Assembly (NCBI RefSeq): GCF_014773395.1
Contig: NZ_JACXAF010000026.1
Span: 1 to 64,000 of the forward strand
Reading direction: 5' to 3'
Origin: Neiella litorisoli
Lineage (GTDB): Bacteria > Pseudomonadota > Gammaproteobacteria > Enterobacterales > Neiellaceae
DNA: 64,000 nucleotides
Notes under the pieces: generated by a model
Told to the model about the DNA's origin: nothing
Database searches by the model: none
What the model saw: the letters and a program-made list of their open reading frames with translations, nothing else
In this document: in pieces, positions 145 to 6,324 of the stretch
How positions within the stretch are numbered: the first letter of the stretch is position 1
Layout: every line of letters begins with the position of its first letter
Made by a program: the position numbers and the translations under genes

Positions 145-834
145 GTGATTCAAACTATTTATGATGGTATGTGGCGTGAGTTTTGTGTGGCGCTACAACA
201 TCAGCAATGCCATATCGACTCGAATATACATAACCCCGCCGATACCCGTCGAGGCATTACTGCACTGGCCTACATTACCGCCAACAGCCGCGCGGTGAGC
301 GATGAAATTACGGCACTACTTGAGCAATTAAAACGCATTGAACCAAGTCAGTACTACTATCCAGCCAATGAACTGCACTTAACCCTGTTATCCATTATCT
401 CTTGCATCGATGGATTTAAGCTATCAGACATCGAGCCTGCGGCCTATGCTGCAGGCTTTAGCGATGCATTGGCGCAATGCGAACCGATTGATATTGAATT
501 TCGCGGCGTCACCGCTTCACCGGCCTGCATTCTGATTCAAGGCTTTCCAATTGGTGATGGTTTAGCGGCGCTGCGGGAGCAACTGCGGCGCAATTTCAAA
601 TCGTCTGCACTTCGCTCCAATATTGATAGCCGCTACAAACTGATGACTGCTCACACAACCGCGGTCCGCTTCTGCACACCTTTGCAGAATGCGACGCGGT
701 TGCTGGATTGCTGCGAGCAGTTTCGAAATCATCATTTCGGCACGGCGAGGCTGAGCAATTTTGAGCTGGTTTTTAATGACTGGTATCAGCGTTGGTCGGT
801 CACTCAATCATTAGCCAAGCTTACCCTTGGTTAA
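145..834 (+). CDS. 2H phosphoesterase-superfamily protein (2'-5' RNA ligase-like)
   Basis: A 229-residue soluble protein carrying two H-x-T motifs, the signature of the 2H phosphoesterase fold: HLTL near residue 78 and HTTA near residue 169, about 90 residues apart. In this superfamily the paired histidines hydrolyse or ligate 2',3'-cyclic or 2'-5' phosphodiesters, often in RNA or cyclic nucleotides. The substrate here is unknown. The start chosen is GTG at 145, preceded by AGGTG four bases upstream; an ATG at 169 is an alternative. No signal peptide or membrane segment is seen. The last 24 bases overlap the 3' end of the convergent cusA gene, so the two stop regions are interleaved. It has no obvious functional link to metal efflux. 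Confidence 0.7.
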   Translation: MIQTIYDGMWREFCVALQHQQCHIDSNIHNPADTRRGITALAYITANSRAVSDEITALLEQLKRIEPSQYYYPANELHLTLLSIISCIDGFKLSDIEPAAYAAGFSDALAQCEPIDIEFRGVTASPACILIQGFPIGDGLAALREQLRRNFKSSALRSNIDSRYKLMTAHTTAVRFCTPLQNATRLLDCCEQFRNHHFGTARLSNFELVFNDWYQRWSVTQSLAKLTLG

Positions 835-3800
835 TCTGGCAACGCGATAGCGGCACACTAGATAGTACGCAGCTGGGATCACCAGTAGCGTTAACACCAG
901 CGAACTTACCATACCACCAACCATGGGGGCAGCGATCCGTTGCATCACTTCAGACCCTGTGCCAGTAGCGAACATGATCGGCAGCAAGCCGATAATAATT
1001 GTTGATGCCGTCATCAATTTCGGCCTTAACCGGAGGACAGCACCGGCTAACATGGCGCCACGTAAACCTTCGGTCGTCAACGCCAACTGTTTGTGCTGAC
1101 AGTCAGTCAACCAATCCTCATAAGCATGCTTGAGATACAGCATCATCAACACACTGGTTTCAACGGCCACACCCGCCAAGGCGATAAAGCCAACGGCAAC
1201 CGCCACTGAAAAATTGAGGTTGAGCCAGTAGAGCAGGCCGATACCGCCGATAAGTGATAGCGGCAGGGTCATTAGCACGATTAGCACATCACTGATTCGG
1301 CGGTGATTGAGGTACAGTAGCAACACGATAAGTGCCAATGTTAGTGGGACCACATAGGCCAGCTTTTGTTGGGCGCGTTGCATGTATTCATATTGACCCG
1401 ACCAAGTGAGCGAATAACCCGGCGGCAGAGTGAGCTGTTGCTCAATCACTTGCTGGGCATTGGCAACGTAGCTACCAATATCAATTCCAGTGACATCTAG
1501 ATAAGTCCAGCCGTTGATCCGAGCGTTTTCGCTCTTAATCATTGGGGCGCCATCTTCGAGTCTAACCGTCGCCACATCACCAAGAGCAATACGTTGACCG
1601 GCTGGTGTCACGATTGGCAGCTCAGCAAGTGTTTCTGGCGAATCGCGATATGACTGCGGGTAACGAATGTTAATCGGGTAGCGCTCTAAACCTTCGATCG
1701 TTTCAGCAATGGTGACACCGCCGACTGCTGCCGTCACCACCTGCTGAATATTGGCGATGTTTAAGCCATATCGAGCGGCTTTCGCTCGGTTGATATCGAG
1801 GGTGATATAGCGCCCGCCAGCGACTCGCTCGGAATAGACCGAAGCGGTGCCGGGCAGGGGGCCTAACAATGTTTCGAGTTGTTGGCCGATCTCTTGGATC
1901 ACCGCGATATCGGCGCCGGCGACTTTGATCCCGACCGGCGTCTTGATACCGGTTGCCAACATATCAATGCGAGTTTTAATCGGCATTACCCAAGCGTTGG
2001 TTAGCCCCGGAAAATCGACCAGTTGATCCAATTCTTGTTGCAGCGATTCGGTCGTCACGCCAGGCCGCCATTGAGATCGAGGTTTGAGCTGAATAAAGGT
2101 CTCAATCATCGTCATTGGCGCCGGATCAGTGGCTGTGTCAGCTCGGCCAACCTTGCCAAACACATTGGCTACTTCCGGTACCGTGCGAATTAACTTATCG
2201 GTTTGTTGTAGCAATTCTCGGGCTTTGCCAATGGAGATGCCGGCATAGGTGGTCGGCATATACATTAAGTCGCCTTCATCAAGAGGCGGCATAAATTCAG
2301 AGCCAATTTTGTTGACCGGCCAAAAACCAATCACGGTAATGATAACGGCGATGAGCAACGTACTTTTGGGGTAGCTGAGTACCGCTTTGAGTAGTGGCGT
2401 GTAGCCTGCCATTAACAGCCTGTTTAATGGGTTTCGTGACTCGGCAACAATTTTGCCTCGAACAAAATAGCCCATCAGCACAGGCACCAAAGTAATGGCG
2501 AGTATCGCCGCTGCTGCCATGGCGTAGGTTTTGGTGTACGCCAGCGGTGAAAATAACCGACCTTCTTGCGCTTCTAGGGTAAATACAGGCAAAAAGCTGA
2601 CGGTAATAATCAGTAGCGAGAAAAACAATGAAGGGCCGACTTCAATGGCTGACTGTGTCACCAACTGCCAATGATTACGGGCTTTTTCACCGTCTCGTTC
2701 AATGTGCTTGTGCATGTTTTCAACCATGACAATGGCACCATCGACCATCGCGCCAATCGCAATTGCGATGCCTCCGAGAGACATGATGTTGGCGTTCAGT
2801 CCCTGCCATTTCATGACAATAAATGCCGCCAAAATTGCGACTGGAATGGTCAGTACCGCCACCAAAGAAGAGCGCACATGAATTAAAAACAGTAAACAAA
2901 TAATGGCGACCGCGATGAACTCTTCGGTAAGTTTGTGCCACAGGTTGTTCACGGCTCGCTCGATCAAACCGGAACGATCATAAACAGGGACGATTTCAAC
3001 GCCATCGGGCAAGCTCGGTTTGAGTTGTTCGAGGCGCTCCTCAATGGCCTTAATCGTTGCTTGGGCGTTTTCGCCAAAGCGCATGACGATAATGCCGCCA
3101 ACGGTTTCACCCTCACCATTGAGTTCAGCAACACCACGGCGCATTTGTGGGCCGAGCTTGATGTCAGCAATGTCCTTGAGTAACAGCGGGGTACCATGAT
3201 TATTGACGCCAAGGGGAATATGGCTGAGATCGTCAATCGACTGGATATAGCCAGTTGCTCGCACCATGTATTCGGCTTCGGCCATTTCAATGACTGACGC
3301 CCCCACTTCTTGGTTTCCTTGCTCAATCGCGGTTTGGATCAGGCTCAATGGCAGGCCAAATGCACGCAATTTTTCGGGATCCACATGCACCTGATACTGT
3401 TTCACCATGCCACCAACGGTTGCCACTTCTGACACACCAGAAACCGCTTGCAGTTCGTATTTCAAAAACCAGTCTTGTAATGAGCGCAGTTGCGCCAAAT
3501 CATGCTGGCCGCTGCGATCTACTAATGCGTAGATATAAACCCAGCCGACTCCGGTGGCATCAGGGCCAAGCTCCGGTGTGGCCGCTTGCGGTAACCGAGG
3601 GCTGATCTGACTGAGGTATTCCAACACGCGGCTACGCGCCCAGTATAAATCGGTGTCGTCGTCGAATATGACATAGACGTATGAGTCACCGAAAAATGAA
3701 AAACCGCGGACCGTTTGTGCTCCAGGCACCGATAGCATGGCCGTGGTCAGCGGGTAGGTGACTTGCTCTTCTACTACTTTGGGGGCTTGTCCTGGGTAGC

Positions 3801-3954
3801 TGGTTTTGATGATCACCTGGACATCCGATAAGTCTGGAATGGCATCGATGGGCGTTTGTTTTAACGACCAGATACCGGCGCCGATGAGCACTAGAGTCAG
3901 CAACAGCACGGTAACTCGATTGCTGATGGACCAACGAATGATGGCTGCGATCAT
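811..3954 (-). CDS. cusA: CusA-type heavy-metal RND efflux pump, inner-membrane subunit
   Basis: A 1047-residue HME-RND transporter, the usual length for CusA/CzcA. It would be the proton-driven inner-membrane trimer that takes metal from periplasm and adaptor to an outer-membrane channel. The N-terminal TM helix is followed by the family motif DAIPDLSDVQV. TM4 carries GAMVDGAIVMVEN, close to the monovalent-cation (Cu+/Ag+) signature of CusA, with the proton-relay Asp present. About twelve hydrophobic segments and two large periplasmic loops are visible. Its ATG overlaps the cusB stop by 4 nt (ATGA), indicating translational coupling. No outer-membrane factor gene (cusC) is nearby, so the channel must come from elsewhere. 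Copper/silver specificity is inferred from the TM4 motif and the CusF-like domain and Met/His tail of CusB. Confidence 0.93.
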   Translation of the reverse strand: MIAAIIRWSISNRVTVLLLTLVLIGAGIWSLKQTPIDAIPDLSDVQVIIKTSYPGQAPKVVEEQVTYPLTTAMLSVPGAQTVRGFSFFGDSYVYVIFDDDTDLYWARSRVLEYLSQISPRLPQAATPELGPDATGVGWVYIYALVDRSGQHDLAQLRSLQDWFLKYELQAVSGVSEVATVGGMVKQYQVHVDPEKLRAFGLPLSLIQTAIEQGNQEVGASVIEMAEAEYMVRATGYIQSIDDLSHIPLGVNNHGTPLLLKDIADIKLGPQMRRGVAELNGEGETVGGIIVMRFGENAQATIKAIEERLEQLKPSLPDGVEIVPVYDRSGLIERAVNNLWHKLTEEFIAVAIICLLFLIHVRSSLVAVLTIPVAILAAFIVMKWQGLNANIMSLGGIAIAIGAMVDGAIVMVENMHKHIERDGEKARNHWQLVTQSAIEVGPSLFFSLLIITVSFLPVFTLEAQEGRLFSPLAYTKTYAMAAAAILAITLVPVLMGYFVRGKIVAESRNPLNRLLMAGYTPLLKAVLSYPKSTLLIAVIITVIGFWPVNKIGSEFMPPLDEGDLMYMPTTYAGISIGKARELLQQTDKLIRTVPEVANVFGKVGRADTATDPAPMTMIETFIQLKPRSQWRPGVTTESLQQELDQLVDFPGLTNAWVMPIKTRIDMLATGIKTPVGIKVAGADIAVIQEIGQQLETLLGPLPGTASVYSERVAGGRYITLDINRAKAARYGLNIANIQQVVTAAVGGVTIAETIEGLERYPINIRYPQSYRDSPETLAELPIVTPAGQRIALGDVATVRLEDGAPMIKSENARINGWTYLDVTGIDIGSYVANAQQVIEQQLTLPPGYSLTWSGQYEYMQRAQQKLAYVVPLTLALIVLLLYLNHRRISDVLIVLMTLPLSLIGGIGLLYWLNLNFSVAVAVGFIALAGVAVETSVLMMLYLKHAYEDWLTDCQHKQLALTTEGLRGAMLAGAVLRLRPKLMTASTIIIGLLPIMFATGTGSEVMQRIAAPMVGGMVSSLVLTLLVIPAAYYLVCRYRVARLTKGKLG

Positions 3955-5816
3955 TTTTGGTCTCCATGATGCTGACTATGGTCCATGTTTTTATGCTGAC
4001 TATGGTCCATGTTTTTGTGCTGGCTATGGTCCATGTTTTTGTGCTGGCTATGGTCCATGTTTTTGTGCTGGCTATGGTCCATGTTTTTGTGCTGGCTATG
4101 GTCCATGTTTTTGTGCTGGCTATGGTCCATGTTTTTATGCTGGCTATGGTCCATGTTTTTATGCTGGCTATGGTCCATGTTTTTATGCTGGCTATGGTCC
4201 ATGTTTTTGTGCTGGCTATGGTCCATGTTTTTGTGCTGACTATGGTCCATGTTTTTGTGCTGGCTATGGTCCATGTTTTTGTGCTGGCTATGGTCCATGT
4301 TTTTGTGCTGGCTATGGTCCATGTTTTTATGCTGGCTATGGTCCATGTTTTTATGCTGGCTATGGTCCATCCCCATGACGTGGATCGCTGTGATACTAAA
4401 GCCTTGCTCTATTTCGGTCATTTCGAAATGCATGCGAACGCCGGGCTTCAATTGCGATAAATCAACAGCTTCAGCAACCACAAAATCCATCACCATCGCA
4501 GGCATCTGCCATGCTTCAACAGCCTGATGATCGACGGTTGCAGTGCGCCGGCTGCGATCGACTGACGTTACCACGCCTTCGGCCCAAGCACTGACAGGCT
4601 TCGCTTCCTGATAAATCGACATACGGCTGAAGTCTGAGCTGATGCTTGATTCAGAATCCAGTAAAAACTGTGCTGAGGTAACAATTTGGTCGCCCGCTTC
4701 AACACCACCAATGATTTCAGCCTGATGCTGATTCACTCTGCCTAAATCAACCGCTACCGATTTAAACTTGCCATCACCGAGCGCTAGTACCAGTCGATCT
4801 TGATGGCCGGTGCGGATCACCGCTTCAGTTGGCACCACTAACTGCTCTCCGGTCGATTGAGTGTGGATACTGATTTGCGCAAACATGTTGGGCTTAAGCG
4901 TTTCGTCGGGGTTGGCAAAGCGCAAACGAACTTGAGCGGTACGATTGGTCGGCTCTAATGCCGGATAAATGTAATCAACCACGCCTTGCCAATTACGGCC
5001 AGGCAAATAGTCAAGTGTCATGGTTACCGGATCACCAATCTTCACCAAATTGGCTTGGCGCTCGAATACCTCGGCGGTTACCCAGACTTCATTTAATGGT
5101 CCTAACGATAAAATGGTATCGCCGGGCTGAACGAAGTAACCCTCTGAGACTTCGAGCATTTCAACGATGCCGGTTTGTGGCGCATAGATGGTAACAGTTT
5201 GTGATGCTTTGCCAGTTTTAATGACTTGATTAATTTGCCGCTCAGGTACGTGCAAAGCACGCAGGCGCTCTTTGGCCGCTTCGATCAGGGCAGGATCGAC
5301 TTTGTCTAACGTCAGCAGTAGCTCTTTTTGAGCATTCACTAGCTCAGGTGAATACAGTGAAAACAACGGTGTGCCTTTTTCCACACGTTCGCCGGCAACT
5401 TTAATATTGAGCGTTTCTAACCAGCCCTCGACACGAGGGTGGATGTGGATCAGGGTGTCCTGATTAAAGCCGACATAGCCTACGGTGGTGATGGTGTCCG
5501 ACAACCGCTTTCGCTCAACAGTGGCGGTGCGGACAGCTAGGTTATTTTCAACTTCGGGAGAAATCTTGATGGTGCCAGGGCTATCCGCCTGATCACCTTG
5601 TTCGGCGTAAACTGGGACTAAGTCCATTCCCATTGGCGACTTTCCGGGACCATCTCGGCGATAGTTAGGATCCATTGGTGCCACCCAATAGAGGGGCTGG
5701 TCTTGTTCTGATGATTGTGCTGGTTCAGCAGTATTTGCTTGCAATAAGTGGTAGCCGAGCACGCCAACGGCAATGCCAAATCCGGCTGAAAGAAACATCG
5801 AAACGATTCGATTCAT
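3951..5816 (-). CDS. cusB: CusB-type RND periplasmic adaptor with CusF-like domain and (MDHSQHKN)n tail
   Basis: A 621-residue membrane-fusion adaptor linking CusA to an outer-membrane channel. Residues 1-30 form a signal/TM anchor. Residues 42-71 are the metal-binding motif typical of CusB proteins (PMDPNYRRDGPGKSPMGMDL). Lipoyl/barrel-sandwich and beta-barrel adaptor domains fill about 75-400. Residues 408-482 resemble a fused CusF Cu(I) chaperone: a His, then EAWQMPAMVMDF. The usual CusF Trp (WPAM) is Met here, with a Trp two residues earlier. From residue 483 to the end the protein is 16 perfect copies of MDHSQHKN plus a final MDHSQH-HGDQK, giving 17 Met and 34 or more His potential metal ligands. 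It starts 64 bp after the His-rich gene and overlaps cusA by 4 nt, so the three probably form one operon. The tail is far longer than in ordinary CusB proteins. Confidence 0.93.
   Translation of the reverse strand: MNRIVSMFLSAGFGIAVGVLGYHLLQANTAEPAQSSEQDQPLYWVAPMDPNYRRDGPGKSPMGMDLVPVYAEQGDQADSPGTIKISPEVENNLAVRTATVERKRLSDTITTVGYVGFNQDTLIHIHPRVEGWLETLNIKVAGERVEKGTPLFSLYSPELVNAQKELLLTLDKVDPALIEAAKERLRALHVPERQINQVIKTGKASQTVTIYAPQTGIVEMLEVSEGYFVQPGDTILSLGPLNEVWVTAEVFERQANLVKIGDPVTMTLDYLPGRNWQGVVDYIYPALEPTNRTAQVRLRFANPDETLKPNMFAQISIHTQSTGEQLVVPTEAVIRTGHQDRLVLALGDGKFKSVAVDLGRVNQHQAEIIGGVEAGDQIVTSAQFLLDSESSISSDFSRMSIYQEAKPVSAWAEGVVTSVDRSRRTATVDHQAVEAWQMPAMVMDFVVAEAVDLSQLKPGVRMHFEMTEIEQGFSITAIHVMGMDHSQHKNMDHSQHKNMDHSQHKNMDHSQHKNMDHSQHKNMDHSQHKNMDHSQHKNMDHSQHKNMDHSQHKNMDHSQHKNMDHSQHKNMDHSQHKNMDHSQHKNMDHSQHKNMDHSQHKNMDHSQHKNMDHSQHHGDQK
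3969..4370 (-). repeat. 24-bp coding tandem repeat (17 units) in cusB
   Basis: Seventeen units of a 24-bp repeat (16 complete, the last truncated) encode MDHSQHKN in cusB. The amino acids are identical in every complete unit. The DNA varies only at synonymous sites: the second His codon (CAT or CAC) and the Ser codon (AGT or AGC). The variants are clustered. The AGT form occurs only at the unit boundaries near 3990 and 4230, each next to a run of CAC units and then a run of CAT units. This suggests a larger block was duplicated after the first expansion. The period is a multiple of three, so slippage would change tail length without frameshift. Confidence 0.97.
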
Positions 5817-5880
5817 TGTTAAAACCTCATAATTAAAAACACGTAACGACTCCCCATTGGAGTAAATGCAACGCGAGGTT

Positions 5881-6324
5881 CTAATTCAGTAATCGTTGAG
5901 TGGTAATAAACAGCGGCGGATAGCCGGAATTGGGTGGTTCGGTTTCGGGTTTGCCGCGGTAAAAACTGAGCATAGCGTTCATCACTAACATCAGTGATTG
6001 CGATGACCATAGCGCCAATGCAGCAAGCATCAGGCTGATAAAGGCGGCTCCGTGGCTGGTCAGCAATTTGGTCATTGGCTGATCGGCTTTATCAGCGCAG
6101 TGAGCTGGATCTTGCGCCATGGCTGTCGAATGATGGGGGGCTGACGATTGGTGGAAGGTTGATTCGGCGGCTTGTTGATGGTGCAAATGGTGCTGCGGCG
6201 ATACTTGGACCTCAGCTTTTACTTGGTTGGATTGAGTGCAAACAAATCCCAAACACACCACGAACCACAGCAATAAAATCACCGCGGTTGGTTTCTGGTA
6301 TTTGTGGATTAATGTTGGCGTCAA
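5881..6324 (-). CDS. small His-rich membrane protein of the cus operon
   Basis: A 147-residue protein not recognised as a named family. It has a hydrophobic N-terminal segment (about 13-32) that may be a signal peptide or TM helix. A His-rich stretch follows at about 44-76 (HHLHHQQ, HHSTAM, AHCADK), then a second hydrophobic helix near 92-118 and a short basic tail. The His cluster between the two hydrophobic segments would face the periplasm and could bind copper or silver. It is the first gene before cusB, 64 bp away on the same strand, the position where cusC or cusF often lies. A role in metal sensing or delivery is inferred from composition and position only. Confidence 0.6.
   Translation of the reverse strand: MTPTLIHKYQKPTAVILLLWFVVCLGFVCTQSNQVKAEVQVSPQHHLHHQQAAESTFHQSSAPHHSTAMAQDPAHCADKADQPMTKLLTSHGAAFISLMLAALALWSSQSLMLVMNAMLSFYRGKPETEPPNSGYPPLFITTQRLLN

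Follow-up and report, generated by a model that had tools for sequence, protein, structure and literature searches.

A near-perfect His/Met octapeptide array at the C-terminus of a CusB-like adaptor in Neiella litorisoli

Why should the adaptor of a probable copper or silver pump end in one octapeptide repeated with almost no variation? The question is raised by a cus locus of the marine bacterium Neiella litorisoli, lying in the 64,000-nt stretch of DNA analysed here (the window), where MDHSQHKN units form the C-terminal end of a CusB–CusF fusion protein. In this window TRF returned a single strong array at 3970–4370 (period 24, 16.7 copies, 98% matches, score 739), the runner-up tandem repeat scoring only 65. 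Read in the CusB frame on the minus strand, the array gives 16 copies of MDHSQHKN, then MDHSQH and HGDQK-stop, so that TRF and translation agree with the 17 units of 24 bp described in an earlier note on this DNA, and the array itself is confirmed as real.

The adaptor, its neighbours and the array

The features of the locus are as follows.

811–3954, minus strand: cusA-like RND permease, 1047 aa (TIGR00914, 1264 bits)
3951–5816, minus strand: cusB-like adaptor, 621 aa, with N-terminal anchor, HMBD, HlyD/CusB core, CusF-like domain and repeat tail (Pfam, solved-structure match, AlphaFold2)
3951–3968, minus strand: unique end HGDQK-stop, with GGAG (sequence)
3969–4370, minus strand: 17-unit 24-bp array, 16 MDHSQHKN plus MDHSQH (TRF and reading in the CusB frame)
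4380–4592, minus strand: CusF-like domain, residues 409–479 (Pfam CusF_Ec, 1.6e-22)
5881–6324, minus strand: small membrane protein containing His, encoded upstream of cusB (ORF; no Pfam or NCBIfam match)

The adaptor carries an HMBD domain recognised by Pfam and a core matching HlyD_D23 (1.2e-78), and its closest solved relative is E. coli CusB (3ne5_B, 1.3e-56). Since it scores 231 bits against the NCBIfam CusB model, under the 390-bit cut-off, it is CusB-like and not a strict member of the E. coli CusB subfamily. The fused CusF-like domain proposed earlier is borne out by the CusF_Ec match; of the His, Trp, Met and Met that make up the CusF site, H430, M441 and M443 are invariant across 17 homologues, and the Trp44-equivalent is Met438. 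Here (window 4500–4505 region, AWQMPAMVM) the Trp44 of E. coli CusF, the cap over Cu(I), is naturally replaced by Met. Tryptophan is kept in the congener Neiella marina and in most homologues, with Gln in one other (L035), and a literature search found no report of CusF W44M.

The stop codon of cusB overlaps the start of the downstream cusA as ATGA, and the GGAG within 3951–3968 is the likely ribosome-binding site for cusA. The permease places Met566, Met616 and Met665 on the M573/M623/M672 triad of E. coli CusA, a Cu(I) site (PMC8092243). By TIGR00914 and alignment, the CusB-type adaptor stands beside a CusA-type permease that has the Met triad for Cu(I)/Ag(I). The gene at 5881–6324 likely belongs to the same operon as cusB; its product has a conserved C-terminus, SGYPPxFxTxQRLLN, and similar genes lie ahead of cusB in one locus (L077) and ahead of cusC in two others (L039 and L076). 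Unlike the related L039 and L076, the cus loci of the window (811–6324) and of N. marina are without an adjacent cusC or MerR gene; the outer-membrane partner must be encoded elsewhere.

Variation within the 24-bp unit is confined to two of its 24 columns, in codon 4 (AGC/AGT) and codon 6 (CAT/CAC), and is synonymous at both, as had been claimed for all differences between units. The earlier count of 17 Met and 34 His is right for the units alone; the whole 141-aa tail, from residue 481 onward, holds 35 His and 18 Met, and the 480-residue core 10 His and 14 Met. Each unit supplies two His per Met, with HxxH and HxxM spacings that combine into HxxHxxM. The tail is predicted to be disordered, with an AlphaFold2 pLDDT of ~30 over residues 484–621 versus ~84–94 over the greater part of the core and CusF domain.

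The His-codon states of the array, N to C, are TTCCCCCTTTCCCCCTT; they agree at nine of nine comparisons at a lag of 8 units (192 bp), a spacing shared by the array's longest exact internal repeat, of 131 bp. Because of these two features the sequence fits an 8-unit block duplication, as had been suggested. The higher-order pattern proposed with it stands in part: the His-codon period of eight units holds, but the AGT units (6, 16 and 17) are out of register between the two blocks. With an exact internal repeat of 131 bp, the copy number of 17 is assembly-dependent.

Three other readings of the repeat were discarded. A phase-variation switch is ruled out, as gain or loss of 24-bp units leaves the frame intact; a Pfam Fibrinogen_BP match at 492–608, below cut-off, is a low-complexity repeat match; and open frames on the opposite strand across the array are taken to arise simply because the repeat lacks stops, and not to be genes.

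Related tails, sister arrays and known systems

A scan of genome contigs found the same array, at the corresponding syntenic position, in N. marina J221, the only match. Its contig 3 stops after 3.5 units and contig 17 starts within the array, so that the full length is not given by the assembly. The Lys codon of MDHSQHKN is AAG in all five complete N. marina units seen and AAA in 16 of 16 window units, against differences at 5 of the 14 core Lys codons shared by the two species; this pattern points to homogenisation of the array within each species, or to separate expansion. Homogenisation together with recent expansion explains the uniformity of the array. The earlier note had offered gene conversion or, alternatively, a peptide conserved while the DNA drifts; the latter has low power, as just two columns vary, and the diverged sister arrays described below add no more than a non-significant trend.

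Many homologues of CusB carry a single MDHSQHxx-type motif, or a few, at their very end, among them MDHSQHEG in Alteromonas macleodii, MDHSNHEG in Glaciecola and MDHSQHKG-MGHSEHKG in a genome of the same family (G005), and MDHS is the majority consensus at the tail motif in the homologue alignment. On such comparisons the Neiella array is best read as an expansion of the short terminal MDHSQHxx motif of CusF-carrying CusB adaptors, an extreme form of the short tail on related copper proteins. Some CusB homologues have a tail with few or no His and Met, and the ligand-bearing tail is therefore not essential for pumps of the CusB type. In the CusB proteins of A. macleodii, Glaciecola and one further genome (L082, L083 and L014, the last in G023), two or three CusF-like domains stand in tandem, another way to extra metal sites.

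A second cusB of the N. litorisoli genome, on contig C23, carries a 48-bp array encoding MDHSQHQT-M(E/N)HS(G/D)HEG. This array has 5.4 copies, as measured in a near-identical copy of the locus in genome G004, and 7.6 in the locus of a congener (G001); the loci are 96.7% identical around the array, and the difference amounts to two 48-bp units, gained or lost in frame. The copy-number change anticipated earlier is thus seen in a paralogous array. Another CusB (G039) has a 75-bp array of 4.1 copies, and the 48-bp and 75-bp arrays fall on separate CusB branches. Because of these arrays it can be said that tails of the MDHS type expand on several CusB branches, with copy number changing. In the sister arrays His 3 and His 6 are retained at 47 of 48 positions; across the diverged sister arrays His/Met retention is a non-significant trend (Fisher test, p 0.19 and 0.71).

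The C23 locus lies in a copper island (L039, G000:C23:207000-222000) comprising a MerR regulator, cusC, cusB, cusA, a DUF411-like gene and a gene for a small His/Met-rich protein. It shares 99.97% identity over 15 kb with G004, which belongs to another genus, and similarity stays high for ~8–15 kb further in the flanks (L084, L085), from which the island appears to be a recent transfer.

A tandem pair of MDHSxxxx units was present in 8 of 395 genomes from the order and in 5 of 369 from the class; both counts include the window genome. Among the proteins read, named by sequence resemblance and not by family scan, the hosts are CopB-like outer-membrane proteins, CopA-like multicopper oxidases, small exported His/Met proteins and another probable outer-membrane protein. 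Such repeats thus do not track with CusB alone, MDHSxxxx arrays being present also in small periplasmic proteins and in CopA and CopB. One CopB-like gene (G380, L047) has a 24-bp array of 6.9 copies; a second 24-bp array of 10.6 copies, ~0.7 kb off, is probably in a neighbouring copper gene.

The octapeptide repeats of P. syringae CopA and CopB are the classic case of this arrangement, and a literature search found no paper on MDHS-type repeats in CopA/CopB. The CopA/CopB arrays resemble that of Neiella, being 24-bp tandem MDHSQM-type octapeptides in copper-resistance proteins (as in the CopB-like protein of G380); in both cases an exported copper protein carries MDHSxxxx octapeptides in tandem. 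They differ in their hosts, a multicopper oxidase and an outer-membrane protein, and often have Met in place of Neiella's second His. SilB of Cupriavidus metallidurans is likewise an RND metal adaptor whose C-terminus carries a fused CusF-like domain (PMC4446572); the passages on SilB in that source mention no tandem His/Met array, whereas in Neiella an array follows the CusF domain. Salmonella SilB also has a Met/His-containing C-terminal extension, and its C-terminal peptide binds Ag+; this extension is a 30-residue peptide with two sites, on a SilB without a CusF-like domain (PMC8686694).

SilE and PcoE are disordered proteins in which His/Met motifs, HxxM among them, recur; SilE folds on 6 Ag+, serves as a buffer within a Cus-like pump system, and also binds Cu(II), Zn and Ni, in fewer ions (PMC5008109). 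The Neiella tail likewise combines predicted disorder (pLDDT ~30) with repeated His/Met motifs (35 His, 18 Met), but is tethered to the adaptor as a near-perfect tandem octapeptide, whereas SilE and PcoE are separate soluble proteins. The likeness is proposed as an analogy of function; no SilE/PcoE model was among the Pfam and NCBIfam matches listed. The ingredients (CopA/CopB octapeptide repeats, SilE/PcoE sponges and CusF-fused adaptors) are already known; the Neiella tail is real and striking, yet not categorically new.

A proposed tethered buffer and its rivals

The analysis shows the anatomy and homology of the tail, a sister-array copy-number change, codon homogenisation and predicted disorder. 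The preferred reading, to which we assign a probability of about 0.62, is that the array is an expanded and homogenised MDHSQHxx motif forming a disordered, Cu(I)/Ag(I)-binding, tethered SilE/PcoE-like buffer alongside the CusF domain. Slippage or unequal recombination among units of 24 bp, which never leaves the frame, would have raised the array to ~17 copies and kept it uniform, the product being a disordered periplasmic tail adjoining the CusF-like domain. Through closely spaced His and Met (HxxHxxM) the tail would bind several Cu(I)/Ag(I) ions, keep them close to the CusF domain and to the point of entry into CusA, and hand them to CusF/CusA; tail length may then affect metal tolerance. 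The periplasmic sponge proposed at the outset is plausible on the His/Met content, spacing and predicted disorder of the tail. If the CusBA 3:6:3 arrangement holds, each pump would carry six tails. That the minisatellite is an evolvable rheostat, in which recombination alters the number of tethered sites and resets copper tolerance without an on/off switch, is a more speculative and rather doubtful extension.

Neutral expansion is a serious rival, though an unlikely one: a terminal motif duplicated by slippage, at a disordered end that tolerates any length, could vary in copy number without functional effect. With only two variable columns, recent expansion alone accounts for uniformity, and homologues with short or ligand-poor tails exist; the rival stays serious because His/Met retention is non-significant in the sister arrays. 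A neutral origin sits less easily with the fact that the same ligand motif has expanded more than once, on separate branches of CusB and also in CopA, CopB and small periplasmic proteins, and with the near-complete retention of His 3 and His 6.

The tail could instead serve mainly a different metal (Zn, Ni or Cu(II)), or act as a sensor or spacer, and not as a Cu(I)/Ag(I) reservoir. Two His to each Met would suit such a role, as would the broader binding of SilE, and tails rich in His are able to bind all three of these metals as well. The identity of the metal as Cu(I)/Ag(I) would follow from context, and the CusF-like domain, the CusA Met triad and the related arrays in copper-resistance proteins make this alternative improbable. 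Least probable is an assembly artefact in which units were collapsed or mis-joined. The length of the exact internal repeat and the N. marina contigs that end within the array would allow it; the presence of the array in frame in two species, and the coherent order of its variant units, speak against it.

If the tail of the preferred reading buffers metal, closely related CusB genes that differ just in the number of metal-binding repeats would form a natural dose series, relating buffer capacity at the pump to copper tolerance. His/Met octapeptide arrays are also one solution reached repeatedly on different copper-resistance proteins, and in Neiella the length of the array may set the amount of copper kept beside the pump.
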